DNA from: Latilactobacillus sakei
Lineage (GTDB): Bacteria; Bacillota; Bacilli; Lactobacillales; Lactobacillaceae
DNA: 64,000 bases
Assembly: GCA_002953655.1 (NCBI GenBank)
Contig: CP025839.1
Coordinates: 868,001 to 932,000 of the forward strand
Reading direction: 5' to 3'
Positions 11,447 to 55,368 of this stretch are shown piece by piece. The notes below the pieces were generated by a model. That model was not told the DNA's origin. It saw nothing but the letters and a program-made list of their open reading frames with translations, and made no database searches. A program made the translations under genes and the position numbers. Within the stretch, counting starts at the first letter, position 1. Each line of letters starts with the position of its first letter.

Positions 11447-12942
11447 ATCAATACGTCATTTTAAACGCGAATGATAACGTTGCAGTAGCTTTGCAAGATC
11501 TAACGGCTGGAACTGTGATAGCAGATCTTGAAACACCGGTCACGCTGCAAGAGGACGTCAAACGCGGGCATAAATTCACACTACAAGCACTCTCAAAAAA
11601 TGCCGATGTCATTAAATATGGTTATCCAATTGGCCATGTGACTGAAGATGTTGTGGCTGGACAATGGGTGCATACGCATAATCTGGCCACTAACTTGAAG
11701 GACCAACTGGCTTATGATTATCAACCAATGACCATTCCCAACCATTATCAAAAGGAACCAGAACGGTATTTTATGGGGTATCAGCGCGATAACGGAAAAG
11801 TCGGCATTCGAAATAACCTCTACATTATTCCAACCGTAGGCTGTATCAATCCCTTGTTGGACATCTTTGTACAACAATTTAAGGCGCTTCATCCAGATAA
11901 TGGCTCATTTGATAACATCATCGTTTTGAAACATCCCTATGGTTGTTCACAATTGGGTGACGATTTTGAAATGACCCGCCGAATTTTAGTGGATGCCGCG
12001 CTTCAACCAAATGCTGGTGGGGTCTTAGTCTTTGGTCTCGGTTGTGAAAATAACCAGATGGACGGGATGAAAGCGGCCATCGAAGCCTACGAACCGATTA
12101 ATCCAGATCGTATGAAATTTATCATTTCACAAGAAGTGAAAGATGAACTAGGTGATGCACTAGATTTATTGGAAGAACTAAATGAAGCCGCTAAAGATGA
12201 TCATCGTGTGAAATGTCCGCTAAGTGATTTGAAGATTGGCTTGAAATGTGGCGGTTCAGATGGGCTATCCGGGGTCACTGCCAACCCGTTATTAGGCCGC
12301 TTATCAGATTATATTGTGGCCCAAGGTGGTTCAACGGTTTTAACGGAAGTCCCAGAAATGTTTGGCGCTGAACAAATCTTAATGTCACGGGCTAAGGATC
12401 AACCGACTTTTGAAAAAATTGTCGAATTGATTAATGATTTTAAAGCTTACTTTGAATCTTATCACCAACCTATTTATGAAAACCCATCACCAGGTAATAA
12501 AGAAGGTGGGATTTCAACTTTAGAGGATAAATCGCTAGGGTGTACGCAAAAATCAGGGACTTCACCAGTATGCGATGTTTTACAATACGGCGATAAATTG
12601 AAGACTAATGGCTTGTCACTATTACAAGCACCCGGAAATGATTTAGTCTCATCATCAGCATTGGCTTCTGCTGATTGTCAGATGGTGCTCTTTACAACCG
12701 GTCGGGGGACACCGTTTGCGACTTATGTCCCAACTGTTAAAGTGGCGTCAAATTCCTACATTGCAGATAAGAAACCACGTTGGATTGACTTTGATGCTGG
12801 CCAATTAATGAACAAATCAATGGATGATTTGGCGGATCAATTCATCGATTTTATTATCGAAACAGCAAGTGGCCGTCCAACTAATAACGAACAATTTGGG
12901 ATTCACGGGATTGCTATTTTTAAAAATGGTGTCACGGAATAA
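11443..12942 (+). CDS. uxaA: Altronate dehydratase
   Basis: It dehydrates D-altronate to 2-keto-3-deoxygluconate. The 499-residue protein has the N-terminal SAF domain (about 1-90) and the large UxaA domain, with KHPYGCSQLGDD, GLGCENNQ, GLKCGGSDGLSGVTANPLLG and LEDKSLGCTQKSG; its cysteines suit an iron-dependent active site. The four-base overlap with uxaB indicates coupled translation. A terminator follows directly. Confidence 0.94.
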   Translation: MNQYVILNANDNVAVALQDLTAGTVIADLETPVTLQEDVKRGHKFTLQALSKNADVIKYGYPIGHVTEDVVAGQWVHTHNLATNLKDQLAYDYQPMTIPNHYQKEPERYFMGYQRDNGKVGIRNNLYIIPTVGCINPLLDIFVQQFKALHPDNGSFDNIIVLKHPYGCSQLGDDFEMTRRILVDAALQPNAGGVLVFGLGCENNQMDGMKAAIEAYEPINPDRMKFIISQEVKDELGDALDLLEELNEAAKDDHRVKCPLSDLKIGLKCGGSDGLSGVTANPLLGRLSDYIVAQGGSTVLTEVPEMFGAEQILMSRAKDQPTFEKIVELINDFKAYFESYHQPIYENPSPGNKEGGISTLEDKSLGCTQKSGTSPVCDVLQYGDKLKTNGLSLLQAPGNDLVSSSALASADCQMVLFTTGRGTPFATYVPTVKVASNSYIADKKPRWIDFDAGQLMNKSMDDLADQFIDFIIETASGRPTNNEQFGIHGIAIFKNGVTE

Positions 12943-35223: not shown

Positions 35224-35239
35224 GTGGAGGAGATTGATA

Positions 35240-35944
35240 ATGAAACCTAAATATCAGCAAGTTGAACAGTTTTTATTGTATCAATTGAAAAATGGTGAAT
35301 TTAAGGAAGGCGATAAGTTCTATTCCGAAGCGGAATTGAAAGAAAAATTTTCGGTTAGTTCTGCAACCGTTATCAAGGCGATTAACGAATTGGTGACAAA
35401 AGGCTTACTGGTTCGTCAACAAGGAAAAGGGACTTTTGTTTCAAAGGCTAGACAGGGAAAGCTTGTTAAATTCTTTGATCACGAAAAAGTAACCGATGCG
35501 GATGAACAAGTTCAGGTGTATTCAATTGAAAAAGAGCATGAACCGCGAATTTTAAGCGAACTACGGTTAGAAGATGATCAGGATTATTATCATATTACGC
35601 GAATTCGGATGGTTAATCAGTTACCGGTTTATGTCCAACACACATATCTGTTGAGCGAATATTTTAATGATTTAGCATTATTTGATCAGGACTATTATTC
35701 ATCAATCTATGAACGGATTCGTGAAGATAGTGGGATTGATTTATTTAATATTGATATGGACGAAACAACCGAAATCGTCTTTCCAGTGCCGGCGCTTGAA
35801 CAAAAATTAATGGCGCTAGAAGACGAGCACCAGCCTGCAGCTTTTATTAAACGCCATAGTTATCTTTTTGATAATAAGGTGATTGAATATGTCGAAAGTT
35901 ATAAACGTTGGGATTATTTTGAGTTTCAGATTAAAACAATCTAG
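35240..35944 (+). CDS. GntR family (HutC/UTRA) transcriptional regulator
   Basis: The 234-residue protein has an N-terminal winged helix (about 1-70: FYSEAELKEKFSVSSATVIKAINELVTKGLLVRQQGKGTF) and a C-terminal UTRA effector domain (about 85-230: YYHITRIRMVNQLPVYVQHTYLL). ATG 35240 follows GGAGGAG. It heads the PTS operon and probably represses it through TTAACCGGTTAA, with a sugar phosphate as inducer. Confidence 0.9.
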   Translation: MKPKYQQVEQFLLYQLKNGEFKEGDKFYSEAELKEKFSVSSATVIKAINELVTKGLLVRQQGKGTFVSKARQGKLVKFFDHEKVTDADEQVQVYSIEKEHEPRILSELRLEDDQDYYHITRIRMVNQLPVYVQHTYLLSEYFNDLALFDQDYYSSIYERIREDSGIDLFNIDMDETTEIVFPVPALEQKLMALEDEHQPAAFIKRHSYLFDNKVIEYVESYKRWDYFEFQIKTI

Positions 35945-41380: not shown

Positions 41381-41427
41381 AAAGAGCCAGCCAAACATCT
41401 AGTAAGATGAAGGGCTGGCTCTTTTTA
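41381..41427. terminator. Bidirectional terminator
   Basis: AAAGAGCCAGCC (41381-41392) pairs with GGCTGGCTCTTT (41413-41424) between convergent genes. Confidence 0.88.
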
Positions 41428-43023
41428 ATGTTTTTCAACATAATTAAAGTATTTAAAATCAGCAAATGAAGCGTGGTGGTCAAGATCTTGCGTACAGATA
41501 CCGACCATTGCGCCGGTAAATGCTAATTTACCATGGGCTTTAATAAAATCATCACTTAATTGATCTGCGGGTAAGACGTCACCGATTGGCTGTAGGTCTT
41601 GTTTGCCAAGCGCATAATAAAATTGTGCTTGGTTACGGTTAACTGTAACTGCTAATCGAATTGATTGATGTTCGGGGATACTAATTCGTTCGGAATGGTA
41701 GGCAAATTGATTAATCGTATCACTTTCAACTTGGATTGTTTTTTCATGACGTTCTTCATCGTAAGAAACTTGCAGATAGTGCCAATTATCCGTGTCATAA
41801 AAGAGCACTAAGCCAGCAAGTTGTTGAAAAGAAGTTGGGTCAAAGGTCATTTCGGTTTCTACACGGAAGTTAAAATGTTGCCATCGGCGGGCAATCAGTG
41901 TTTGTTGGTGTAAGCTGGTAATACTTTGTTCACCATAAAGTCGTAAATAGCCAGGATGATCCGATAGTGAGATACACCGTTGATTAGCAGTGGGTGCTTG
42001 GCGAAGTCCTTTAAAATAATTTGGTAATTGTGTTGTATTAAAATCACAGAATGTACTAAAATCGCTTTTTTGACGACTATTCTTAGCGATTGATGGGACT
42101 GGCACTGCTAAATCTGGGAAGATAGTGCCATTAGTTAGTCGGGGCCACTCATCAATCCAATCGATTTTTTGGAGGGCGGTTTCTCGGCCTAATGGGCAAT
42201 TTCCACGTTCAGTTAACGGGCGAGCGCAAATATGCGTGATATACCATTCATCAGGGGCGACTTCAATAAAAGAAGCATGCCCACTTTTTTGAAGGGGGTT
42301 AGTCGGATCAGGTTTAGTTGTTAGTAACGGGTGGTATGGCGATTGTTCATAAGGGCCCATAATTTGTCGCGACCGACAGACGGTTGCGGCGTGACTATAG
42401 CCGGTGCCACCGGCAGCACATAATAAATAATACCAGCCGTCTTTTTTTAATATCTGAGGCCCCTCGCAAACGCCTAAATCAGTGCCGGTAAAGAAATGAT
42501 GGCGTGTCCCTGTCAATTCTAATGTCTCAGCATTAAATTCTTGAATGACTAGGCCAGCAAAATTGGGCTTTTCGAGGCGATGATCAAATAACATACTCAT
42601 AAGGTAATGTTTGCCATCGTCGTCATGGAAAAAGGCGGGATCGAAACCAGAAGCCGTGACAAAATGCGGCTGACTCCAGGGACCGGTGATTTCTGGCGCA
42701 AACATAACATAATTCAAAGTGTCCTTAAAAGCTGTGCCGGTTTTAACATCGGTGATGAGTAACCAAAATTGACTATCGGCGTAACTAAGGTGAGGGGCCC
42801 AGATACTACCGGAATTATAATTACCCGTTAAATCGATAACGGCGTCGTTTTCTAGCGGGGAACTGACTAATTCCCAATTGATGAGATCAATTGAGTGATA
42901 GATTTCAACACCAGGTAGCCATTCAAACGTTGAAGTTGCCAGATAGTAATCTTGACCGACCTTTACAACGGAAGCATCGGGATTAAAACCGGGTAGGATT
43001 GGATTTTTAAAAGTTTTCATCAT
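41425..43023 (-). CDS. GH43 beta-xylosidase/alpha-arabinofuranosidase-like enzyme
   Basis: The 532-residue protein has the five-bladed GH43 domain (about 1-310: NPILPGFNPDASVV with Asp16, GFDPAFFHDDDGKHYL, VCEGPQIL with the acid Glu) and a C-terminal beta-sandwich (about 325-525) as in GH43 subfamily 11 xylosidases. It is intracellular. It is the last gene of the minus-strand operon but is separated from EIID by a hairpin. Xylose or arabinose side groups of pectin or hemicellulose are likely targets. Confidence 0.88.
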   Translation of the reverse strand: MMKTFKNPILPGFNPDASVVKVGQDYYLATSTFEWLPGVEIYHSIDLINWELVSSPLENDAVIDLTGNYNSGSIWAPHLSYADSQFWLLITDVKTGTAFKDTLNYVMFAPEITGPWSQPHFVTASGFDPAFFHDDDGKHYLMSMLFDHRLEKPNFAGLVIQEFNAETLELTGTRHHFFTGTDLGVCEGPQILKKDGWYYLLCAAGGTGYSHAATVCRSRQIMGPYEQSPYHPLLTTKPDPTNPLQKSGHASFIEVAPDEWYITHICARPLTERGNCPLGRETALQKIDWIDEWPRLTNGTIFPDLAVPVPSIAKNSRQKSDFSTFCDFNTTQLPNYFKGLRQAPTANQRCISLSDHPGYLRLYGEQSITSLHQQTLIARRWQHFNFRVETEMTFDPTSFQQLAGLVLFYDTDNWHYLQVSYDEERHEKTIQVESDTINQFAYHSERISIPEHQSIRLAVTVNRNQAQFYYALGKQDLQPIGDVLPADQLSDDFIKAHGKLAFTGAMVGICTQDLDHHASFADFKYFNYVEKH

Positions 43024-43043
43024 TAATATGCTCCTATCAATGC

Positions 43044-43076
43044 TAAAAAAGAGGTGGCAACTGCCCCTCTTTTTAG
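43044..43076 (-). terminator. Terminator or attenuator between EIID and GH43
   Basis: On the minus strand AAAAAGAGG and CCTCTTTTTT bracket an inner GGCAGTTGCC. It could reduce expression of the GH43 gene relative to the permease. Confidence 0.65.
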
Positions 43077-43090
43077 CGTCTATTCAATAA

Positions 43091-43948
43091 TTAACCAGTG
43101 ATTCCTAAGACAGTTAGGATAATTGCGATTAAAAAGACAGTTAATAATGCGCGTACAGGACGATTATGTTTACGCAGGTAAGCGAAACAAAGCATTGTTA
43201 AGGTTAGTGGTAATAGACCAGGTAAAATGGAATCTAAAATTTGTTGAAGATTAAATTCGGTGCCACCAATCTTTTGTGAGAAGGTAGTTGTAAAGGTTAC
43301 AAATTGTGCTGTCATTGCGCCGGTCATGATTAAACCTAAAACAGTACAACCTTTAGTAATCGCATTGAAAGAACCGCTCTTCATGGCCTTAGAGATGAAG
43401 GCGCCACCTGATTTATAGCCTAATACGCCACCAAACCAACGAATCAGTGCATTAGGGATACTAGCAACGACTAAGAAGAGGATAGGGCCCAGAATATTTC
43501 CTTGTTGACTAAGCCCTAGGGCAACACCCGTTGCGACAACTCGGATAACTGAAAGATAAACCGAATCACCAATACCGGCAAGTGGGCCCATTAAAGCTGT
43601 TTTAAGTGCGCTAATCGAAGTTTCATCGAATGGCGTACCGTTATCAGTCGCTAATTTATTTTCTTCTTCCATTGAAATCGTTAAAGCAGCGATGAAGTTA
43701 TTCATTCCGGTATTAGTATTGTAAAAATCTTGATGGCGGGCCATAGCCGCATAGAACGCGTCAGTACCTTTACCATATATATTCTCTAGGAAGGGTTCCA
43801 TAACCCACGAATAAGTAATGCCCTGCTGTTTGGTATAGCTAGCACAAAACATAAGATAGTTACTGCGCCAAAAGAGCTTCCAGAGTAGCTTACGTTCTTT
43901 TTTATCGAGTTTAGTCGATAATACTTTTGTTTCTGTTGGATTAGTCAT
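43091..43948 (-). CDS. PTS mannose-class permease, EIID component (sigma-54 operon)
   Basis: The start is put at the ATG giving MTNPTETK, with GAGGA eight bases upstream; it overlaps the EIIC gene by eight bases. The 285-residue protein has SNYLMFCASYTKQQGITYSWVMEPF, FYNTNTGMNNFIAALTISME and TALMGPLAGIGDSVYLSVIR. It belongs with the EIIC and EIIB genes immediately upstream; the EIIA is encoded in the opposite operon at 48395. Confidence 0.9.
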   Translation of the reverse strand: MTNPTETKVLSTKLDKKERKLLWKLFWRSNYLMFCASYTKQQGITYSWVMEPFLENIYGKGTDAFYAAMARHQDFYNTNTGMNNFIAALTISMEEENKLATDNGTPFDETSISALKTALMGPLAGIGDSVYLSVIRVVATGVALGLSQQGNILGPILFLVVASIPNALIRWFGGVLGYKSGGAFISKAMKSGSFNAITKGCTVLGLIMTGAMTAQFVTFTTTFSQKIGGTEFNLQQILDSILPGLLPLTLTMLCFAYLRKHNRPVRALLTVFLIAIILTVLGITG

Positions 43949-44807
43949 TGAAAAAATCCTCACTTTCATCGTTAGAATCAACCGTTTCGGTTGCAGTTTG
44001 TTTATTATTGTTGTTGTGGCGTAATTCGGCCATTACAACAAGAGCTGCGATAATAAAACCAATGAAGGCAATTTGAATTAGGGAAAGCATTTTAGTTGGC
44101 GCAGTTGTTAATGCAACTGCACCTTTAGTTAAGCGACCATCTGTTGCTTTGTCGTAGGTGAAGAATGCACCTAATGCGAATCCTAAGAAGTAAAATGGGA
44201 TGAGGCTCTTTTCCCAAAGCATTTTAAGTAGCAAGGCAATCCCGATAGCGGGTAACATAGTTGCAGCAACGGTCATTGAGCTTTGAATCCAAGTTGGAAT
44301 AGCTTCAATTAAAGCTTTAATGGCATTAGTACCAACCATAATTGAAATGAAACCAAGTAGAAAATAAACTAATTCAAAACCCCAAAACTGAAGTGACCAG
44401 AGTCGATTAAAAGCTTTAATATTTTTATCTTTAATATGTTTTTCAAAACGTGGGACAAGGGATGTAATAACCATTTTCATAACTGTATAGATTAAAGTTC
44501 CTAATAATGAAATTGGAACGGCTAAGGCAATTGCGGTTTCGATTTTAGAACCTAAGATCATTGCAAATGCGCCGCCGAAAATGGATCCCAATGTAAAATC
44601 GGATGGCATAACGCCACCGAGATTGACGTTTCCTAGGAAAATTAATTCTAATTGAGCCCCAAGAATAATCCCTTCAGTGGGGTGACCAAGTAAAATCCCT
44701 AGTAGAGCAACGATAAAAATTGGCCGAGAAAGTTGAGAACTAAACCACCAATCTAAAAACTTAGCGAGTGCGACAACAAAACCAACAATGAGTGCGTTCA
44801 TTAACAT
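43941..44807 (-). CDS. PTS mannose-class permease, EIIC component (sigma-54 operon)
   Basis: The 288-residue membrane protein has the EIIC-Man pattern (FWFSSQLSRPIFIVALLGILLGH-like start with PTEGIILGAQLELIFLGNVNLGGVMPSDFTLGSIFGGAFAMILG). AGGAGG lies eight bases before ATG 44807, directly after the EIIB stop. It has an Asn/Thr-rich, acidic C-terminal tail (about 262-288) that the other EIIC lacks. Confidence 0.9.
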   Translation of the reverse strand: MLMNALIVGFVVALAKFLDWWFSSQLSRPIFIVALLGILLGHPTEGIILGAQLELIFLGNVNLGGVMPSDFTLGSIFGGAFAMILGSKIETAIALAVPISLLGTLIYTVMKMVITSLVPRFEKHIKDKNIKAFNRLWSLQFWGFELVYFLLGFISIMVGTNAIKALIEAIPTWIQSSMTVAATMLPAIGIALLLKMLWEKSLIPFYFLGFALGAFFTYDKATDGRLTKGAVALTTAPTKMLSLIQIAFIGFIIAALVVMAELRHNNNNKQTATETVDSNDESEDFFND

Positions 44808-44808
44808 A

Positions 44809-45300
44809 TTAATGGCCTCCTAGTAATTGATTTAATGATTGTTCAGGATCGCTGGGAAGCGGTTGATAAGTAAAATCATAGCCATCAGCGAACATCTTTT
44901 GGAAAATTTGTTCATCTGTTTTTGATAGGTAAACGGTTTCTGTCACTTTGCGCTTATCACTTAGGACACCACCGATTCGGCCATAGTTAGCAATATTTAA
45001 ACGTGGTTTCTGAGTGAGATGTGGGACTAGTCCAGCAACATATTTTGGATCGTTGGTAACAACTAATATTTTGAGTGCTTCTGAACGTGGGTCATTTAAG
45101 ATCTTAATGGCTTTATCAAGTGGTAAGATAGCTGCTTTTACGCCAGCAGGAGCTGCCATTTTAAGCGCGCTAATCTGAATTTCATTGGTAGCAATTTTGT
45201 CACTGATAACGACAATGCGACTAATTCCTAATTCCTTTGACCATTTAACCGCCACCTGTCCATGGATAAGTCGATCGTCAATTCTAATCATACTAATCAT
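44809..45300 (-). CDS. PTS mannose-class EIIB component (sigma-54 operon)
   Basis: The start is the ATG giving MISMIRIDDRLIHGQ, with AGGAGG seven bases before it; the upstream frame to 45363 is untranslated leader. The 163-residue protein has phospho-acceptor His13. It is the first gene of the operon transcribed from the -24/-12 promoter at 45372-45389. Confidence 0.9.
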   Translation of the reverse strand: MISMIRIDDRLIHGQVAVKWSKELGISRIVVISDKIATNEIQISALKMAAPAGVKAAILPLDKAIKILNDPRSEALKILVVTNDPKYVAGLVPHLTQKPRLNIANYGRIGGVLSDKRKVTETVYLSKTDEQIFQKMFADGYDFTYQPLPSDPEQSLNQLLGGH

Positions 45301-45390: not shown

Positions 45391-45400
45391 TTGTGTCGAC
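45391..45400. promoter_or_regulatory. GTCGACACAA element abutting the -24 box
   Basis: Minus strand GTCGACACAA ends one base before the -24 element. The same element (TTCGACACAA) lies in the same place at the other sigma-54 promoter (48327-48336). Confidence 0.5.
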
Positions 45401-45459
45401 TGGATGAATCAGCTTTTTATCACAGGGATTGCAATTTAAACGCGGCGTGGTATAGTAAA

Positions 45460-45495
45460 TTCGACAGAAATAAAAACGGTTACAATTGTGTCGAA
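45460..45495. promoter_or_regulatory. Inverted TTCGACA elements before the levR-like gene
   Basis: TTCGACAGAA (45460-45469) and TTGTGTCGAA (45486-45495) face each other 16-26 bases before the activator start, with a cre-like AACGGTTACA between them. This suggests an operator for the same factor that touches the two sigma-54 promoters. Confidence 0.5.
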
Positions 45496-45511
45496 GAAAA
45501 GGAATGAGTCG

Positions 45512-48253
45512 ATGAGCCTAGATAAAGTAAAAAATGAAGTCGTTAAAGAAACGTTAGCATTACGGACGATTGCAGATATTAAAAATATAACAACTGAAAA
45601 AATTGCGACGCAAGTCCAGTTGAGCCGCAATACGGTTAGTCAGTATTTGAATGAATTATTAAAATCTGGTGCGGTGGTTCAGGTTAAATCGCGACCGGCT
45701 AATTTTTTTGATCGAGAAACTTTTACGGAATTATTTTTTAAACCGCAAACGCTAATATACAGTACCTTAGCCGCTTTAACGGCTGAACAGAGTGCGACAC
45801 AAAGCGTCTTTCAATCTTTTATTGGTAGTCAAGAGAGTATGCGCATCGGGATTGAACATATTACGACAGCCATTAATTATCCACCAAACGGGCTACCGAT
45901 GATTTTTTCTGGTAGTACCGGTGTGGGGAAGAGTTATCTGGCCAAACTAACCTATGATTATTGTGTTGAAAAAGGAATTTTGAGTGAACAAGCTCCTTTT
46001 ATGACGCTCAATTGTGCGCAGTATTATCATAATCCGGAGTTACTTTCGAGCAATCTTTTTGGTTATGCCAAAGGGAGTTTTACCGGGGCAACAACTGATT
46101 TTAAAGGGTTACTAGAATCGGCTGATGGAGGCGTTTTGTTTTTAGATGAATGTCACCGCTTAGATCCTGAAAGCCAAGAAAAACTTTTTTCGTTTATGGA
46201 TACGGGTACTTTTCAACGGATGGGGGAAAATAATGTGACTCGGCGGGCAAACGTGCGCCTGATATTTGCGACCACTGAGGATTTAAACGAAACATTCCTA
46301 AAAACCTTTATGCGGCGTATTCCAGTGTCGGTTAAGGTGCCTGATTTAAATAATCGCTCTAAAACGGAATTGAAATTACACATCTTCAAAGCCTTTATTC
46401 AAGAAAGTGAACGGTTAGGGCGGCCTATCACGGTGAGTGCCTGGGTGATCAATCGGCTTTATAATTTAAAATATAAGAGTAACGTTGGTGAGTTAAAGAC
46501 TAATATTCGACTATTATGCGCGCGCGTTTTCAGTCAGGAGAAGACTGCGGAGACGATTGTTATCAATTCAGAAAGTATTGGCAATACTTTTTTAACAAAT
46601 CTAATGGCTTCTAAAGAGCAAGAAGTTGTAGTCAAAGAAGCCGTTAACTTCAGTCCGACAAGTCAACTGACAGATTTTGAAGATCAATTGCAGGATGAAA
46701 ATTCATTGCTATTAAATGGCTTACAAAAAATATTAGGCTTAGTTGAGCAATATCAACAGCGCACATTATCGTTAGAGAATGTCAAACGACAACTGGCTCG
46801 TGAAGCGGCTGCCCTAATCGATCGTATTGTGCATGGCGATCAGCAATTTCAAGATGAATCTTTAAAATATATGACCGCCGTGATTCAAGGGTTATTTGAT
46901 TATCTTGAGTCATCTTTCTTCGTTAAAATTAAGGGAAATGCGATTGTTGCGATTGCTAACTATATTTACCGGAAGAATGATTTTGAAATTAAAATAACGC
47001 CTAAGGAAACGATCTTGTTAGAACGACTGTTAGGTTTAATCTCAGAGAATGCGGGGATTGAGACCCAGTTGTTGAAATCATTCTTAGACTTAGTTAAGAC
47101 AAAACTGGACTTTAAATTAGATTTGTTTAGCCAAGTTTTACTGATGGGTTATTTAATTAGCTTGGAAATTGATTATCAACGCTCAGGCCAATCAGCGATT
47201 ATCTTAGCGCATGGTTTTTCAACCGCTAGTAGTATCGCGGATGTTGCCAACCAATTTTTGGATTATAAGGTTTTTGATGCGTTTGATATGCCGTTATCAA
47301 TTTCAGTCAATCAAGTGCGGGAATTTATGGACCAGTATTTGAAGAAATACGATTGTTCAAAGGGACTGGTTATTCTAGTGGATATGGGGTCTTTAATGGT
47401 CTTGCCGGAATCGCTAGAAGAAGTTGTCGACGGACCACTTTTAGTTATTAGTAATGTTTCAACTCAAGAAGCGCTGTATGTGGGGGAATTAATTCGTAGT
47501 GGGACCGCAATTGATGAAATTGGGCGCAAGGTTCAAGAAAAACTGCGGCCAACGTATCGACTGAGTTACCCAATTGTTAAAAAAGCCCCGATGATTATTA
47601 CGACTTGTCATACTGGCGTTGGTTCAGCAAAACAAATTCAAAAATTCTTAGAGAATAGTATGCCTCAGAATCTCGATTATCGCATTGAGGCAGTTGATTA
47701 TGCCTATTTAACGCAATACGCAGATCAAAGTCCGTACTTTAATCAATATGATGTCGTTTCGATTGTCGGAACAAGTGATCCTCAAATTCCGGGAATGCCG
47801 TTTATTTCATTAGAAAAATTGGTATCGACAGGAGACAAGGAAATTGTTCACCAAATTTTTCCAACGATCGAAGATTCGACGGTGTTAGATCAAATTAATG
47901 ATAAGTTAATTCAAAACATGTCAATTGAGCGTCTATTATCGGCAGTCACGATTTTAGATGTCAAAAAAGTGATTGAATCAGTGAGCCAATTAATTGGCCG
48001 CCTTGAAGAAGGCTCACAAATTAAATTATCTAACAATCAGAAGGCTATTTTATACGTGCACATTAGCGCACTAATTGAACGTTTAATTCGGAATGAAAAG
48101 CCCCTGGAATATCATCCTGATAATGAAGCAGAACGTGTTCAGGGTCTCCAGCAGATTGCCAGAGCACTGGGGACGATTGAGTCGAGCTATGGCATTAATG
48201 TTTCAGATGGTGAACGTAATTATTTATACGATATTATTTTTGAAGGTGAATAA
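45512..48253 (+). CDS. LevR/ManR-type sigma-54 activator with PRD and PTS-like domains
   Basis: From ATG 45512 (AAGGA upstream; the GTG at 45488 lies inside a regulatory element) it has 913 residues. An N-terminal HTH (about 28-60) is followed by an AAA+ sigma-54 domain with Walker A GSTGVGKS (134-141), GSFTGA (188-193) and VLFLDE (208-213). Two PRD-like regions (about 420-530 and 800-910) frame an EIIA-Man-like domain (IILAHGFSTASS, His about 567) and an EIIB-like segment (TCHTGVGSAKQ). Such proteins activate mannose-class PTS operons from -24/-12 promoters in response to PTS phosphorylation. Confidence 0.93.
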   Translation: MSLDKVKNEVVKETLALRTIADIKNITTEKIATQVQLSRNTVSQYLNELLKSGAVVQVKSRPANFFDRETFTELFFKPQTLIYSTLAALTAEQSATQSVFQSFIGSQESMRIGIEHITTAINYPPNGLPMIFSGSTGVGKSYLAKLTYDYCVEKGILSEQAPFMTLNCAQYYHNPELLSSNLFGYAKGSFTGATTDFKGLLESADGGVLFLDECHRLDPESQEKLFSFMDTGTFQRMGENNVTRRANVRLIFATTEDLNETFLKTFMRRIPVSVKVPDLNNRSKTELKLHIFKAFIQESERLGRPITVSAWVINRLYNLKYKSNVGELKTNIRLLCARVFSQEKTAETIVINSESIGNTFLTNLMASKEQEVVVKEAVNFSPTSQLTDFEDQLQDENSLLLNGLQKILGLVEQYQQRTLSLENVKRQLAREAAALIDRIVHGDQQFQDESLKYMTAVIQGLFDYLESSFFVKIKGNAIVAIANYIYRKNDFEIKITPKETILLERLLGLISENAGIETQLLKSFLDLVKTKLDFKLDLFSQVLLMGYLISLEIDYQRSGQSAIILAHGFSTASSIADVANQFLDYKVFDAFDMPLSISVNQVREFMDQYLKKYDCSKGLVILVDMGSLMVLPESLEEVVDGPLLVISNVSTQEALYVGELIRSGTAIDEIGRKVQEKLRPTYRLSYPIVKKAPMIITTCHTGVGSAKQIQKFLENSMPQNLDYRIEAVDYAYLTQYADQSPYFNQYDVVSIVGTSDPQIPGMPFISLEKLVSTGDKEIVHQIFPTIEDSTVLDQINDKLIQNMSIERLLSAVTILDVKKVIESVSQLIGRLEEGSQIKLSNNQKAILYVHISALIERLIRNEKPLEYHPDNEAERVQGLQQIARALGTIESSYGINVSDGERNYLYDIIFEGE

Positions 48254-48261
48254 GAAATACA

Positions 48262-48300
48262 AAAGCTGGGATAAATAGCATTTTATCGGCAGCTTTTTTT
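48262..48300 (+). terminator. Terminator after the levR-like gene
   Basis: AAAGCTG pairs with CAGCTTT and GATAAA with TTTATC inside it; TTTTTTT follows. It isolates the activator gene from the sigma-54 operon that starts just downstream. Confidence 0.85.
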
Positions 48301-48326
48301 GATGCTATAACATTATGGGGCGTTAC

Positions 48327-48336
48327 TTCGACACAA
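48327..48336. promoter_or_regulatory. TTCGACACAA element abutting the -24 box
   Basis: The element ends three bases before the -24 box at 48340 and matches those at 45391 and 45486. Confidence 0.5.
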
Positions 48337-48339
48337 AAG

Positions 48340-48355
48340 TGGCATGAAACTTGCT
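48340..48355 (+). promoter_or_regulatory. Sigma-54 promoter for the EIIA-GH88-HAD-rpoN-GH36-GH28 operon
   Basis: TGGCATGAAACTTGCT matches the -24/-12 consensus with correct spacing. The bases after it (TTATAG) are the same as after the opposite promoter. It lies 40 bases before the EIIA start. Confidence 0.87.
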
Positions 48356-48394: not shown

Positions 48395-48799
48395 ATGAAC
48401 AGAATTATTTTGATATCACACAATCGGTTAGCAGAAGGGATGAAACGTGCGGTAGAAATGATCGCAGGCCCGCAAGCTAATTTAGAATGTTTGGGTCTGA
48501 TGCCAGGAGAACAACCAGATGCATTAATTGACAGTTTTAAACAAACCATCCAACCAGAACAAAATATTATTATTTTGGCCGATATTGTTGGAGGTAGTAT
48601 GTGTAACGCAGCAATGGCTTTGTTACCACTCCCTAATGTCAGGATAATTGGTGGGATGAATCTAGCATTGGTGTTAGAAGTCGTTTTAGCTACACCACAA
48701 ACTGAAGCGGAAATCCAACACGTTATTGAAAGTGCTTCGCAAAATATGCACGAGATTCAATTGGTAGCAAATCAAGAACGAGAAGAAGACTTTTTCTAA
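48395..48799 (+). CDS. PTS mannose-class EIIA component (sigma-54 operon)
   Basis: ATG 48395 lies eight bases after GAAGGGG; the product has 134 residues with IILISHNRLAEG (His9) and ADIVGGSMCNAAMALL. It is the missing IIA for the divergent EIIB-IIC-IID operon. Upstream frame to 48371 overlaps leader sequence. A GH88 gene follows after 21 bases. Confidence 0.9.
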   Translation: MNRIILISHNRLAEGMKRAVEMIAGPQANLECLGLMPGEQPDALIDSFKQTIQPEQNIIILADIVGGSMCNAAMALLPLPNVRIIGGMNLALVLEVVLATPQTEAEIQHVIESASQNMHEIQLVANQEREEDFF

Positions 48800-48820
48800 A
48801 TTAAAGGAGTGTTGAAATTA

Positions 48821-49936
48821 ATGGATAAGCAACAATGGGCAACACAAATACTCAGTAAAATTGAATTAAAGGTTGATCAAGAACTTCAGCGTTTAGGAGA
48901 CCAAATTCCCTATATGGCCGTTGATGGGCATTACACTGATATGGGCGCTAAAGACATTACTTGGTGGACAAATGGCTTTTGGTCAGGCATTTTATGGCAG
49001 TTATACCACGCTACAGGTAAGCCAATTTACAAAGAAACGGCTCAAAAAAATGAAGAACGCTTAGATCAAGCTTTTTTAAACTTCAAGGGCTTACATCACG
49101 ATGTTGGCTTTATGTGGTTGCATACTGCAGTCGCAAACTATCGCCTGACACAAAATCCAAAATCATTACAACGGGGCTTACATGCCGCTGAGTTGTTAGC
49201 GGGTCGCTATAATCCACGCGGGCAATTTATTCGTTCGTGGAATCGCGATCGAGCAGGATGGGTCATTATCGATAGTATGTTAAATATTCCGTTATTGTAC
49301 TGGGCGCAAGAAGCCCTAGACGATCCGCGGTTTGGTTTTATTGCGGAAGATCATGCGGATAAAGTAATGACTAATATTGTGCGAGCAGACGGTTCGGTCG
49401 CACACATTGGTGTCTTTGACCCACAGGATGGTACCTTGCTAGAAACCTTAGGTGGTCAAGGTTACGGTGTTGGCTCTTCTTGGTCACGCGGACAAGCATG
49501 GGCCATTTATGGTTTTGCGCTTAGTTATCGGCATACTCACAAGGCGGTATATCTTGATACAGCTAAAAAAGTCGCGAATTACTTTATTGCTAATATTCAA
49601 AAAACAGGTTACATTCCGGTATCAGATTTTAGAGCGCCACAAACACCAGTGAAAGTTGATACTTCTGCGGCAACGTGTGCTGCTTGTGGGTTCTTAGAAA
49701 TTGCGCGGCATGTACCTGAAAATGAACGACCACTTTATGAAGAGGCGGCCGTTAATATCTTGAAGGCGATTGTTGAAAAGCATGTTGATTGGCGTACTGA
49801 GGCAGATGGCATTGTTTTGGATGCGACACCAGCTTATCATGAGGAAGAAACTGTCCAAACCCCAATCATCTATTCGGATTATTATTTTATTGAAGCTATT
49901 TTACGTTTGCTGAATCAGGACTTTCTAATCTGGTAA
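48821..49936 (+). CDS. GH88 unsaturated glucuronyl hydrolase, second copy
   Basis: The 371-residue protein has WWTNGFWSGILWQLYHATG, HHDVGFMWLHTAVANYR (Asp94) and WVIIDSMLNIPLLYWAQ (Asp151), the two catalytic aspartates of UGL enzymes, then SSWSRGQAWAIYGFALSYRHT. ATG 48821 is chosen; an in-frame TTG at 48809 sits too close to AAAGGAG. It is homologous to 38050-39192 but clearly distinct, so the two PTSs each carry their own hydrolase. It acts in the cytoplasm on unsaturated uronide ends. Confidence 0.9.
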   Translation: MDKQQWATQILSKIELKVDQELQRLGDQIPYMAVDGHYTDMGAKDITWWTNGFWSGILWQLYHATGKPIYKETAQKNEERLDQAFLNFKGLHHDVGFMWLHTAVANYRLTQNPKSLQRGLHAAELLAGRYNPRGQFIRSWNRDRAGWVIIDSMLNIPLLYWAQEALDDPRFGFIAEDHADKVMTNIVRADGSVAHIGVFDPQDGTLLETLGGQGYGVGSSWSRGQAWAIYGFALSYRHTHKAVYLDTAKKVANYFIANIQKTGYIPVSDFRAPQTPVKVDTSAATCAACGFLEIARHVPENERPLYEEAAVNILKAIVEKHVDWRTEADGIVLDATPAYHEEETVQTPIIYSDYYFIEAILRLLNQDFLIW

Positions 49937-49951
49937 AAAGGAGCTAAGTAT

Positions 49952-50776
49952 TTGATAAAAATGGTAGGAACGGATTTAGATGGCACATTATTAAATCGTC
50001 AGAATCAGATTTCAACTATTAATCGCCAAACAATTCAGGGATTGGCACAACAGCAAGTTGTATTTGCAATTACTTCGGGGCGAAAGGCGGACTCTATCCA
50101 AGCCGTTTTTAAGGATTTGAACGTTAGTGGCTATAAAGTCTGCTTAAATGGTAGTTATGTATTAGGACCAGCTGATGAAGTCCTCTATGAGGCGCCTTTA
50201 TCAATTACAACGATTCGCCAAATATTGGGGATTGGCTTACAAAATCAAGTGCAGGTCTTTTTTAATAGCGCCGCTGTTTCATTTTATTACCAACCAACTA
50301 CTTCTCAAATTGCAATTCCTGAATTTGTTCATGGTAATCCCAGTATCGTACAGATTCAATCAGAGCAAGCATTGCTAGCAACGATTGAAAAACAAGGTCT
50401 TAATATCTATAAAGCGGCTTTTACAACCACCGATACTGAAGCGTTAACCACATGTTTAAAGACCCTAGAGCAACAGCAAATTGTCAATCAAGTTTGGTCA
50501 GATCGTAATTACTTGGAGATGACCGCTAAGGGGGTTACCAAGTTAACAGGCATCAAGAAAATTGCCGAGTACCTGGCGCTTGATTTAACCGAGATTGCTT
50601 GTTTTGGTGATTATGATAATGATATTGAAATGTTAGCTGGGGTTGGTTATGGGGTGGCAATGAGTAATGCGGTTCAAAAAGTTAAACAAGCCAGTTATTT
50701 GATAATTGATAATCAGCATGCAGAGGGTGTCGGTAATGGTATTAAACAGTTAATGGGTGAGCAAAATGGCGCTTAA
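49952..50776 (+). CDS. HAD superfamily Cof-type phosphatase
   Basis: The 274-residue protein starts at TTG 49952, eight bases after AAAAGGAG. HAD motifs are GTDLDGTLLN (nucleophile Asp), TSGRK, KGVTKLTGIKK and CFGDYDNDIEML. The Cof family dephosphorylates sugar phosphates and similar compounds. Inside a PTS oligosaccharide operon it could remove the phosphate added during uptake so that the glycosidases can act. That role is inferred. It overlaps rpoN by 11 bases. Confidence 0.87.
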   Translation: MIKMVGTDLDGTLLNRQNQISTINRQTIQGLAQQQVVFAITSGRKADSIQAVFKDLNVSGYKVCLNGSYVLGPADEVLYEAPLSITTIRQILGIGLQNQVQVFFNSAAVSFYYQPTTSQIAIPEFVHGNPSIVQIQSEQALLATIEKQGLNIYKAAFTTTDTEALTTCLKTLEQQQIVNQVWSDRNYLEMTAKGVTKLTGIKKIAEYLALDLTEIACFGDYDNDIEMLAGVGYGVAMSNAVQKVKQASYLIIDNQHAEGVGNGIKQLMGEQNGA

Positions 50777-52058
50777 ACAAGGACAACAATTAGCAGAAAA
50801 GCAATCACAACAACTTAAATTGTCGCAGAGTATGCAACAGTCCATCATGATGTTGCAGCTGGATACGATCGATTTACTAAGTTACCTCAAAGAGAGTAGT
50901 TTGGAAAATCCATTATTTGATGTGCAAGAAAAATATGGTCAATACGTTGCGAGTCAAAATACGGCAACGTATCAGATTAAAGATGAACAACGCTCTTTAT
51001 TTGAATACTTGCTAGAGCAAATTCAACTAACGATGCGGCAAACACCGCTTAGGGATTTAGTAATTTATCTAGTCGAACAACTAGATCCCAATGGCTATTT
51101 ACAATTAAGTGATGCGGAGATATTAACTGAGCTAGCAATTGACCCCATTATGCTCCAAGATGCTAAAACATTATTGCAGCGGTTAGATCCACCAGGTGTG
51201 GGGGCTAGTTCTTTACAAGAGTGTTTACTGTTACAAGCACAGCATGCTGAACAATTCGTACCAGTAGGAACAGTGACGATTTTATCGAGCCAATTTGAAG
51301 CATTAGTTGCACATGATTGGCAGGCTATTCAAACCCAGTGTGGCTTAACCGCAAAACAAGTGATAGATTGCCAGCAATATATCCAGCAGCTAACGGCCGC
51401 ACCAGGGCAAATTTATACCAGTCAACGGTCGCAAGTAATTGTGCCAGACTTGATTTTGAAGATTGATGATAAGCACTTGACGTTAAGTTTTTCAAAATAT
51501 GGGAATCCAGAATTGATATTCGCAAATGAAACCTATCAAACCTTAAAACAATCAACAGATCAAGAGGTGCGGCGCTATATCAATGAAAAAGAATCCGATT
51601 ATCAAAAATTGGTCTACAATTTGGAACGCCGCAAAAAGACGATTAGCTTAATTGGTCGCTGTATTATCGCCAAGCAACAGGCATTTTTCTTACAGCAGAC
51701 AACTTCGTTAGCGCCGTTATTACTTCGGGATATAGCAAACGAACTTCAATTAAGTGAATCGACTGTTAGTCGTGCAGTCAATGGTAAATATCTACAAACG
51801 CCGACGGGAACGTTTGAATTAAAAACATTTTTTGCACGGCGGAGTAAAGTTAAGCAAGGTGAAACGATGCGTTCGGTCGATCAAGTGCAGAAAATTATTC
51901 AACAAATGATTGCTAATGAGTTGCCACAGCAGCCGTTGAGTGATCAAAAAATCAGTGAAGCACTTAAGACGCAAGGGCTGCAGCTTGCTAGACGAACTGT
52001 TGCTAAATATCGGGAAGAATTAGCAATTCCCCCAGCAACCAAGAGGAGGAAAAAATGA
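50766..52058 (+). CDS. rpoN: RNA polymerase sigma-54 factor
   Basis: From ATG 50766 it has 430 residues. Region I is Gln-rich (QLAEKQSQQLKLSQSMQQSIMMLQLDTIDLLSYL), followed by the core-binding domain (LVEQLDPNGYLQLSD; QRLDPPGVGASSLQECLLLQ), a helix-turn-helix (RDIANELQLSESTVSRAVNGKYLQTP) and the RpoN box ARRTVAKYREE (about 408-418) that contacts -24. It lies inside the operon read from the -24/-12 promoter at 48340, overlapping the HAD gene and the GH36 gene, so sigma-54 would drive its own synthesis. Confidence 0.95.
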   Translation: MALKQGQQLAEKQSQQLKLSQSMQQSIMMLQLDTIDLLSYLKESSLENPLFDVQEKYGQYVASQNTATYQIKDEQRSLFEYLLEQIQLTMRQTPLRDLVIYLVEQLDPNGYLQLSDAEILTELAIDPIMLQDAKTLLQRLDPPGVGASSLQECLLLQAQHAEQFVPVGTVTILSSQFEALVAHDWQAIQTQCGLTAKQVIDCQQYIQQLTAAPGQIYTSQRSQVIVPDLILKIDDKHLTLSFSKYGNPELIFANETYQTLKQSTDQEVRRYINEKESDYQKLVYNLERRKKTISLIGRCIIAKQQAFFLQQTTSLAPLLLRDIANELQLSESTVSRAVNGKYLQTPTGTFELKTFFARRSKVKQGETMRSVDQVQKIIQQMIANELPQQPLSDQKISEALKTQGLQLARRTVAKYREELAIPPATKRRKK

Positions 52059-54151
52059 TAAAAGAGAGTCGTCAGTATAAAAAGTATACATTTGATTCAA
52101 TCGTTGCAGCATATTCAATTGGTGAAAAGAGTGGTGCAGTAGGACTAGTCATTTATCCCCAAAGCCGTGCTCATGAAGTAAAAATTGCAAAAACGCCAGT
52201 AGACTCTCTAGTCCAGGTGGCCCTAGCTGGAGATACTGCCAGCAAAGGTTTTACGAACGGTTGGAGTATGCATAACAGTGAAACGACACAAACTTTAACC
52301 TACTTAGATCAATCCGTTGAAGAAAATCAACAACAAATTAGCATTACAACCCAAATGCAAGATGCAAAAGGGAATTTAGTGACGCACTTGTTAACGTGGC
52401 ATAAAGGCTATCCAGTTTTAGAAATGCAGTCACGATTTGAAAACCGAACGGCTACAGCCGTCTGGTTGGAAAATTTATCAAGTTTTTCGATCAGTCAACT
52501 ATCGCCGCTTTCAGTGCCCAATCAGCCTAGAACGTTATCTTTAACACGCTTCAGAAGTAAATGGGCGATGGAAGGTCGGCTTGAGCGCCACTATATTGAA
52601 GATTACCAATTGGAACCGAGTTGGAAACCCTCTGGTGGCAGTGTTGAAAAGATTGGTCAAGTGGGTTCGATGCCGGTTAGAGGCTTCTTTCCATATTTGG
52701 GAGTTGCTGATGAAGCGCATCAAGTTTATTGGGCCTTTCAACTTGCGATACCAACGTCTTGGCAAATTGAAGCCTATCGGAAGCAAGATGATTTAATCAT
52801 CACCGGTGGTTTGGCAGATTATAATTACGGTCACTGGCGTAAATCAATTTTACCAGGTACCAGTTTTACCACCCCTGTCGCTAGGGTAACAGTCGGGACG
52901 GGATCGCAAGAAGCAGTTAATCAGCAATTAGCAACTTTAACGCAGGCGAGTTTGGTGCAACATCCCAATTCCGATGCGACTGAATTACCGATTGTGTTTA
53001 ATGAATTCTGTACATCTTGGGGCACACCGCGCCAAGCCGATTTAGAACAAGAATTGGCGATTATTAAGCAACACCAGGTTAAATATTTTGTGATTGATGC
53101 AGGCTGGTATGCTGATCAAGCGGGTTCTTGGGAAAATAAAATGGGGGACTGGACGGTTAGTGAAAATCTATTTCCAAATGGCCTAGCAGCACTTTCTAAA
53201 AAAGTACGCCAAGCTGGGTTAATTCCCGGTATTTGGTTTGAATTTGAGGTCGTTGGTAAGGATAGTACCGCTTTTAATTGGGTGGATCATTTAGTTAAAA
53301 AAGATGGCCTACCAGTGACTGCTGGGACACGTCGCTTTTGGGATATGACGGATCCGTGGGTTCAAGACTATCTCAGACAACACGTTATCCAGTTATTGAA
53401 AGATAATGATATTGGCTATTTGAAAATCGATTATAACGAAAATATCGGTGTTGGTTGTGATGATGAATCCTTAGGTGAGGGGTTACGCAAACAAATACTA
53501 GCAACACAAGCCTTTATTCGGAAAATTAGAACGATGGTGCCAGGAATTGTGATCGAAAACTGCTCTTCTGGCGGTCACCGCTTAGAACCATCTATGATGG
53601 CGCTAACTGATATGTCATCTTATTCCGATGCGCATGAAACGTGGTCGATTCCGATGATTGCCGCTACCTTGCAACAGCATATGTTGCCAGTTCAGGCGCA
53701 AATCTGGGCCGTGTTACATCAGGCTGATTCAATTCAACAGATTCAATATGTGATGAGTGCGACATTCCTCGGGCGTATGTGTCTTTCAGGGGATGTTACG
53801 CATCTATCACAAGCACAATGGCAGAGTGTCGATGACGGGATTGCATTTTATCAACGATTGAAAACAATCCTTAAAAAAGGACAGTCGACATTTTATGGGC
53901 GTGCGCCACAAACATATGGGGAGCCGGATGGTAGCCAACTCGTAATTAGAAAAACTACAGATGAACAATTATTGGTGTTTCATAATTTTAAGACTGACTG
54001 GCAAACATTCAAAATAGAAATTGATTGGCAAAAATGGCAGATTGATAGCCAATATGGTGAAATGACTCAAGTTCAAAAAACAGCAACCGGACTCGTTTTT
54101 ACTGGTCAAAAGACTTATTGTGCGAGTGCCATTTATTTAGTGAGACGCTAA
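52055..54151 (+). CDS. GH36 alpha-galactosidase
   Basis: The 698-residue protein has the N-terminal beta-sandwich (about 1-290), the GH36 barrel with YLKIDYNENIG (nucleophile Asp459) and ENCSSGGHRLEPSMM with SSYSDAHE (acid/base Asp525), and a short C-terminal domain. It is slightly shorter than typical GH36 AgaA enzymes (about 730). It starts four bases before the rpoN stop. It would remove alpha-galactosyl residues in the cytoplasm from sugars brought in by the sigma-54-controlled PTS. Confidence 0.93.
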   Translation: MIKESRQYKKYTFDSIVAAYSIGEKSGAVGLVIYPQSRAHEVKIAKTPVDSLVQVALAGDTASKGFTNGWSMHNSETTQTLTYLDQSVEENQQQISITTQMQDAKGNLVTHLLTWHKGYPVLEMQSRFENRTATAVWLENLSSFSISQLSPLSVPNQPRTLSLTRFRSKWAMEGRLERHYIEDYQLEPSWKPSGGSVEKIGQVGSMPVRGFFPYLGVADEAHQVYWAFQLAIPTSWQIEAYRKQDDLIITGGLADYNYGHWRKSILPGTSFTTPVARVTVGTGSQEAVNQQLATLTQASLVQHPNSDATELPIVFNEFCTSWGTPRQADLEQELAIIKQHQVKYFVIDAGWYADQAGSWENKMGDWTVSENLFPNGLAALSKKVRQAGLIPGIWFEFEVVGKDSTAFNWVDHLVKKDGLPVTAGTRRFWDMTDPWVQDYLRQHVIQLLKDNDIGYLKIDYNENIGVGCDDESLGEGLRKQILATQAFIRKIRTMVPGIVIENCSSGGHRLEPSMMALTDMSSYSDAHETWSIPMIAATLQQHMLPVQAQIWAVLHQADSIQQIQYVMSATFLGRMCLSGDVTHLSQAQWQSVDDGIAFYQRLKTILKKGQSTFYGRAPQTYGEPDGSQLVIRKTTDEQLLVFHNFKTDWQTFKIEIDWQKWQIDSQYGEMTQVQKTATGLVFTGQKTYCASAIYLVRR

Positions 54152-54165
54152 AGTGAGGGTGAGAA

Positions 54166-55368
54166 ATGCGTAATCAAGAATTTAACATTATCGATTTCGG
54201 CGCGCAAGCAGATACGATCCAACTCCAGACCGTTGCAATTCAAGCCTGTATTGAGGCGTGCCGCGAAGCAGGTGGTGGCCAAATAACGGTTCCCACCGGC
54301 CGCTTTTTAATTGGTAGTCTACGATTGTATTCCGATATGACGCTCTATTTGCAGGCGGGTGCACAGCTGATAGGAAGTCCCAATTATCTAGACTACGAGG
54401 ATTTTCAAGTACCGACGACCATAATGTACGCTAATGATGCCTATTATCAGACTAAATGGCACCTACCACCCTATTATTTTTATGGCTTAATCACTGCTTT
54501 TCAGGCTGAAAATATCAGTATTATTGGTGAACCAGGTGCGGTAATCGATGGCTGTGATACTTACGATGCTAACGGAGAAGAACAATTTCGAGGGCCAATG
54601 GGAATTGTCATGTCACAAGTTAAACATTTGCAACTAATAGGTTATACGATGCAAAATAGTGCTAATTGGTCACATTGTTTGGATGGTTGTGAGCAGGTTT
54701 TAATTGAGCGAGTGACAGTTCAAGCAGGCCATGATGGCTTTAATTTGCATCATTCTCGAGCGATTAAAGTCCAAAATTGTCATTTGGAAACGGGTGATGA
54801 TTGCTTTGCAGGCTATGATATTCGACAATTACAGGTGACTAATTGCCAATTAAATACGGCTTGTAATGTTTTTCGAGTAGGGGGACACCAATTAGTAGTT
54901 GATAATTGCCAAATTAAGGGACCAGGGCGTTATCCGCATTTATCGCAAGATACTTATAATACACATGCGTTATTTAAGTATTATTCGATTGATGTCGATC
55001 AGATGACGCCTGTTCAACAAGATATAACGTTTCAAGACTGTTTAATTGATAATATTGGTCAGTTAATCGTCTACGACTTTGGTAATCGAAATTTTATGCA
55101 GACAAATCGCCCATTGGACCAGATTAATTTTAAAAGAACGACAATCAATCACTTAACCCAATCTTCAACGATTAACGGGCAGCATTTGACGGTCTCGTTT
55201 GAAAAAACATTAATTAACTTTAATAGTAAGCAACCATTTTTAACGTTTAAAACGCCAATTACACTTAAGTTGAACGAAGTAACTTTTAAACGGCCAACAA
55301 CAATAATGTTAGCAAACGGCCAACAACTAACGCTTGATTCTCAAATCAATTTAATTGTTACTAAATAA
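54166..55368 (+). CDS. Divergent GH28-like beta-helix protein
   Basis: The 400-residue protein opens with NIIDFGAQADTIQLQTVAIQACIEAC, typical of GH28 and related beta-helix enzymes, and keeps GHDGFN (Asp190) and TGDDC (Asp211/Asp212). The later GHG and RIK motifs are not recognisable; the equivalent region reads TACNVFRVGGHQ. It has a long aromatic insertion (DAYYQTKWHLPPYYFYGL, about 91-108). It is probably a cytosolic enzyme for an unusual galacturonide or other glycan linkage. It is the last gene of the sigma-54 operon. Confidence 0.75.
   Translation: MRNQEFNIIDFGAQADTIQLQTVAIQACIEACREAGGGQITVPTGRFLIGSLRLYSDMTLYLQAGAQLIGSPNYLDYEDFQVPTTIMYANDAYYQTKWHLPPYYFYGLITAFQAENISIIGEPGAVIDGCDTYDANGEEQFRGPMGIVMSQVKHLQLIGYTMQNSANWSHCLDGCEQVLIERVTVQAGHDGFNLHHSRAIKVQNCHLETGDDCFAGYDIRQLQVTNCQLNTACNVFRVGGHQLVVDNCQIKGPGRYPHLSQDTYNTHALFKYYSIDVDQMTPVQQDITFQDCLIDNIGQLIVYDFGNRNFMQTNRPLDQINFKRTTINHLTQSSTINGQHLTVSFEKTLINFNSKQPFLTFKTPITLKLNEVTFKRPTTIMLANGQQLTLDSQINLIVTK

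Follow-up and report, generated by a model that had tools for sequence, protein, structure and literature searches.

Our analysis of the window, i.e., the whole stretch of 64,000 nucleotides from Latilactobacillus sakei, indicates that a short element with the core TCGACA is very probably the half-site recognized by the LevR-like sigma-54 activator (EBP), whose gene lies between two operons. One half-site sits 5 or 6 bp from the -24 box of each of two divergent sigma-54 promoters, and two facing half-sites form a palindrome before the activator gene. For the promoter-proximal half-site we favor a role in activation, by docking of the EBP, with a probability of roughly 0.68.

The activator gene (45512..48253, plus strand) codes for a 913 aa protein with an HTH, an AAA+ domain, an EIIA-Man-like domain and a C-terminal PRD. 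The sigma-54 interaction AAA+ domain scored 132.8 bits against PF00158, with GSFTGA as the GAFTGA-like loop, and PF03610 (EIIA-Man-like) and PF00874 (PRD) were both above cut-off; Pfam did not detect an EIIB-Gat-like domain or a first PRD. At the N-terminus, residues 13-63 gave weak MarR/TrmB winged-helix matches below the Pfam cut-off, and the helix R-N-T-x-S-Q-Y-L-N is conserved in the alignment with relatives. DagR is the nearest full-length NCBIfam model, with a score far under its cut-off. The EBP is the one strong PF00158 match in the genome, the other four being near 35 bits. Mannose-family PTS genes lie directly downstream of both -24/-12 promoters, and are predicted to be controlled by the EBP. 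The left operon (minus strand) starts with the gene for the mannose/sorbose-family PTS EIIB (44809..45300), followed by EIIC, EIID and GH43 genes (41425..44807), while the right operon (48395-55368, plus strand) starts with genes for EIIA and a GH88-family hydrolase (48395..49936) and continues with a HAD hydrolase, rpoN and additional glycosidases. With EIIB, EIIC and EIID on the left and EIIA on the right, one PTS is thus divided over both promoters. The rpoN gene for sigma-54 (50757..52058, plus strand) is the sole copy in the genome and lies downstream of the right sigma-54 promoter, suggesting that sigma-54 may belong to its own regulon. In one related locus (L150) the first gene behind a composite promoter (half-site plus sigma-54 boxes) is rpoN, and in two others (L042 and L153) it comes after the activator gene.

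All four copies of the element that had been reported from the sequence, one at each sigma-54 promoter and two before the activator gene, were confirmed. At the left promoter (TGGCACGTTACTTGC, 45388-45374, minus strand), which drives the EIIB-EIIC-EIID-GH43 operon, the copy at 45391-45400 of the minus strand (GTCGACACAA) has 1 mismatch, and its TCGACA core (45394..45399) is followed by a gap of 5 bp to TGGCA. At the right promoter (TGGCATGAAACTTGC, 48340-48354, plus strand), which drives the EIIA-GH88-HAD-rpoN-glycosidase genes, the copy at 48327-48336 is an exact match and the gap from its core (48328..48333) is 6 bp. Both promoters are well formed. The element had been described as abutting the -24 box; it is indeed very near, but the 5 bp and 6 bp gaps mean that there is no contact. 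The other two copies are the arms of a 36-bp palindrome (45460..45495), TTCGACAgAA-N16-TTGTGTCGAA, i.e., two facing half-sites arranged as TCGACA-N22-TGTCGA. The left arm (45460-45469, TTCGACAGAA) has 1 mismatch, and the right arm (45486-45495, minus strand) is exact. This palindrome extends from about +1 of the EBP transcript up to shortly before the EBP ribosome binding site, behind a sigma-70-type promoter (45429..45456, plus strand; TTGCAA-N16-TATAGT with TG before the -10) that is predicted from its consensus match only.

The bare word is common but not enriched: when 2 mismatches are tolerated the window has 78 matches compared to 78.4 expected, and when 1 is tolerated the genome has 117 compared to 139 for the control. 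Frequency alone was therefore discarded as evidence. An intergenic search of the plasmid collection gave no match. The arrangements, in contrast, are found only here. The exact composite pattern, TCGACA-N4-7-TGGCA-N5-6-TTGC, occurs twice in the genome, at these two promoters, with 0 control matches, and the exact 36-bp palindrome occurs once. A common word falling by chance near two promoters would agree with the lack of enrichment in window and genome, but position, orientation and spacing are kept in 18 loci, and this conservation refutes such an explanation, to which we give almost no weight.

The sequence-only reading had named two grounds for abandoning the shared element: many random occurrences, which applies to the bare word though not to the arrangement, and lack of conservation, which is false, the arrangement being kept in distant relatives. 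EBP orthologues have 60-64% identity in Lacticaseibacillus and Agrilactobacillus, and 44-47% in Enterococcus, Tetragenococcus, Vagococcus and other Lactobacillales. In nearly all of these orthologous loci, TCGACA or a near variant adjoins the -24 box of the linked sigma-54 promoters. Scanning without bias over gaps 0-69, we found the half-site at 41 of 112 sigma-54-like sites in the 18 EBP-clade loci (Lactobacillaceae, Enterococcaceae and relatives) and at none of 105 such sites in loci of other LevR-like EBPs (Fisher, 2e-14); the variants counted were those already seen in the loci, so the fair measures are the offset histogram and the reversed-word control. In that histogram, 27 half-sites have a gap of 5 and 14 a gap of 6, almost none fall elsewhere, and all share a single orientation. 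Among 395 Lactobacillales genomes, the exact composite is present in 6 of 6 genomes of the EBP clade versus 13 of the 389 others (Fisher, 5e-9), the latter count being about that of chance, since a reversed-pattern control gave a similar number. In 12 clade genomes there are degenerate composites at the EBP locus, plus a few scattered single matches elsewhere. The cluster itself is patchy within the genus: five same-genus genomes (G025, G062, G093, G119 and G143) have no close activator orthologue, the best having 28% identity (G062), and therefore the cluster was perhaps horizontally acquired. In two loci the activator gene is not intact as sequenced, with one TGA read through in L146 (G619:C14:19095-21836) and the N-terminal part out of frame in L048, from a draft of Lacticaseibacillus camelliae; this is decay or sequencing error.

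Among the regulators of the window, the EBP is the only one with homologues in all of the loci, based on tblastn of all window proteins against them. The GntR protein (35234-35944) was considered as the binding factor and dropped, as it has a homologue in none of the other loci. That one factor tunes the activator and both operons, as originally suggested from the symmetrical placement, is well supported, with the element tracking the EBP across several families. So is the idea of an atypical LevR site, with the element present both at the promoter of the EBP gene itself and at every promoter of the regulon. An unlinked repressor or activator, distinct from the EBP, that reads the element at all three places would also account for the symmetry, as any single factor for the activator and operons would. 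It is nevertheless improbable: the element follows the EBP clade, the loci have no other window regulator in common, and in a second LevR subfamily a different word occupies the same places (see below).

The position of the palindrome is conserved along with its sequence. The 22 bp between the cores are found near the activator gene in nearly all orthologous loci, and in most of them the palindrome, with its spacing kept, overlaps the sigma-70 promoter or start region of the EBP gene. The layout of the EBP promoter is repeated in other Lactobacillaceae loci, where the palindrome starts 3-4 bp past the -10 box of the EBP gene and ends near the ribosome binding site. In Tetragenococcus there is no divergent operon, and the palindrome overlies a -35/-10 pair. 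No clear palindrome was seen at the EBP gene in two loci (L144 of genome G557 and L146 of genome G619), none was found near the right promoter or near most enterococcal promoters, and the DNA upstream of other LevR-like genes has no consistent perfect wide palindrome of a similar kind. Placement over the -35/-10 or start region fits autoregulation, most simply repression. An EBP dimer or a larger oligomer would sit on the facing half-sites, 28 bp apart, at the EBP promoter and would probably exert negative autoregulation there. In loci with a divergent operon, the positions put the palindrome centre 115-152 bp upstream of the expected sigma-54 start, a distance typical of enhancers, so that in Lactobacillaceae it is probably also a classical enhancer. 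Putative activator sites at classical enhancer distance are the left-promoter palindrome (centred near -116, counting from the expected start) and a second palindrome in an Agrilactobacillus MAG (L042), which is about 138 bp upstream of another composite promoter and not beside an activator gene. The latter suggests that such palindromes can also be enhancers.

The single half-site of the sigma-54 promoters appears to work differently. Each regulon promoter carries one half-site fused to the -24 box and facing the promoter. The fixed gap of 5-6 bp in this orientation puts the centre of the missing palindrome at about -21, between the -24 and -12 boxes (-20.5 for gap 5 and -21.5 for gap 6, as inferred from coordinates), where the EBP must engage sigma-54. 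We propose that one DNA-binding domain of the EBP docks at the half-site and thereby sets the AAA+ domain on the sigma-54 complex, which would make activation promoter-specific and largely or wholly independent of looping. Binding to a single half-site may be weak. EBP activity would be set by PTS phosphorylation, of the LevR/CelR type. A full palindrome at the sigma-54 promoters was also considered, given that TATAGA lies at the 22-bp spacing of the right promoter, and was rejected because TATAGA belongs to the TTGCTTATA that sigma-54 promoters usually have and loses its register in the gap-5 promoters.

The main competitor to docking also has the EBP binding the element, but with a negative effect at the sigma-54 promoters, where inactive or excess EBP would cover the -24 region and thereby keep expression down, and activation would come from the palindrome or from unseen enhancers. 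A site adjoining -24 could obstruct RNA polymerase, and the overlap of the palindrome with the sigma-70 promoter or start region of the EBP gene is repressor-like. Further half-sites are also present upstream of several promoters, and those farther upstream at clade promoters in L047, L144 and L145 make distant enhancers possible there. But blocking needs no rigid spacing and would benefit from a second half, whereas only one half is conserved, in constant orientation and with a 5-6 bp gap. In addition, several composite promoters have no other half-site-like word within 300 bp upstream, and the upstream DNA of such lone half-site promoters is often the end of a coding gene. We consider this alternative rather unlikely, and docking the better explanation of the proximal half-site. 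The repressor site proposed by the sequence-only reading is accordingly divided: it loses ground at the sigma-54 promoters, with their lone, uniformly oriented and rigidly spaced half-site, but at the sigma-70 promoter of the EBP gene the palindrome is placed as a repressor site would be. In Enterococcus florum and Vagococcus there are, in common, two YCGACA direct repeats 22 bp apart (L047, ~8816-8844; L145, ~11642-11669), located about 170-200 bp upstream of the EIIB promoter, a possible second enhancer type.

Other LevR-type activators, examined at 141 loci that yielded 103 distinct promoters, lend independent support to the EBP as the binding factor. Beside the -24 box of these promoters, ACA displays a peak at gap 5 (31 promoters), compared to 6 promoters at gap 6 and 9 at gap 7. 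Similarity within groups goes up at the element, and the flanking DNA of groups A and K is back at background level. In the subfamily with an SKELN helix, TACAC or its reverse complement adjoins -24 in 19 of 19 loci, and copies of ATACAC/GTGTAT are present upstream of the EBP gene, again in 19 of 19. The loci of the ATACAC subfamily are L181-L187, L197, L202, L204, L207, L212, L213, L216, L217, L225, L228, L230-L232 and L235. These data bear on whether the element is simply an extended part of the sigma-54 promoter, recognized by RNA polymerase itself and unrelated to the EBP. Rigid spacing from -24 and the frequent ACA at gaps 5-7 in other LevR-type promoters agree with such an extension, and the LevR-wide ACA peak could partly be a general trait of these sigma-54 promoters. 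Yet at a sigma-70 promoter the same word makes a palindrome, its 5' half varies between EBP subfamilies, and in four SKELN loci the word at the promoter is reversed, which argues against a simple box extension. We thus find it very unlikely, slightly more so than an unlinked factor. Extending docking by the EBP to the whole LevR-type family, each subfamily having its own word 5-7 bp from -24 and docking beside and onto the sigma-54 polymerase, able to activate without a looped enhancer, is a tentative generalization to which we give somewhat less than even odds.

A residue-by-residue recognition code (SxYLN) was dropped, since the SQYLN recognition helix is shared beyond the clade by two loci (L137 and L143) that have the MptR-type element and so break the rule. 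MptR-type promoters have GCCACTA where the clade has YCGACA, and GCCACTA also pairs with the -24 box as a hairpin. Just past the LevR-like gene of MptR-type and related loci (L016, L017, L021-L023 and L120-L143), a hairpin has the -24 box as its right arm and runs into a T-rich stretch (e.g., GCGTGCCACTAAAGTTGGCACGC, preceding TTTTTGC); in four loci (L122, L123, L129 and L134) it spans both sigma-54 boxes. The activator gene's terminator and the sigma-54 promoter that follows therefore seem, in MptR-type and related loci, to be one piece of DNA. Loci of the L213 type have clusters of ATACAC/GTGTAT 68-130 bp upstream of the promoter, like classical enhancers. In Bacilli outside Lactobacillales (L250-L252, L254, L256, L257 and L262), LevR-like promoters share GTGTTT immediately 5' of TGGCA, and several of them have a catabolite-repression-like site upstream (e.g., TGTAAGCGCATACA).

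Sigma-54 activators are the textbook example of bacterial regulation from distant enhancers. For Clostridiales, PMC6615313 places the majority of EBP sites 100-250 bp upstream of the sigma-54 promoter. The closest known system is LevR and the lev operon of B. subtilis, with its activator domain plan, a sigma-54 promoter and a mannose-family PTS operon. The lev UAS is given at -125 in the section of PMC10864463 on this system, and the palindrome of our loci, ~115-152 bp upstream of the divergent promoter, resembles it. Unlike in LevR/lev, there is here a conserved single half-site 5-6 bp from -24, and the palindrome lies at the promoter of the activator gene itself. CelR of Bacillus thuringiensis and C. 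acetobutylicum is likewise a PRD-containing EBP, and binds several sites at its target promoter, as described in the corresponding part of PMC10864463. The PRD-EBP regulons listed there are for beta-glucosides, levan, mannose, pentitols and glucosamine, whereas the cluster here is of uronate/pectin type. MptR and LpoR of Enterococcus faecalis are similar in being LevR-type EBPs adjoining mannose-family PTS operons (PMC8262876), and the UAS of LpoR at the lpt promoter is termed as yet unidentified in the passage of that paper on the promoter. FleQ of Pseudomonas is a sigma-54 activator thought to work near the promoter without looping (PMC6120874, in a passage citing Jyot 2002), but the EBP here is of a different domain family, and that passage describes no fixed half-site adjacent to -24 for FleQ. 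Our literature search, with Nie et al. 2016 (PRD-EBP motifs) outside its scope, returned nothing on a conserved half-site of LevR-type activators that is fused to -24, and we provisionally regard this fusion as new for LevR-type activators.

The sigma-54 system found in this genome, one EBP, one rpoN and two composite promoters, is all in one cluster. If true, a conserved, subfamily-specific activator half-site locked to -24 would change the view of how LevR-type activators choose and fire their promoters, and would provide a sequence rule to match many PTS operons with their activators.
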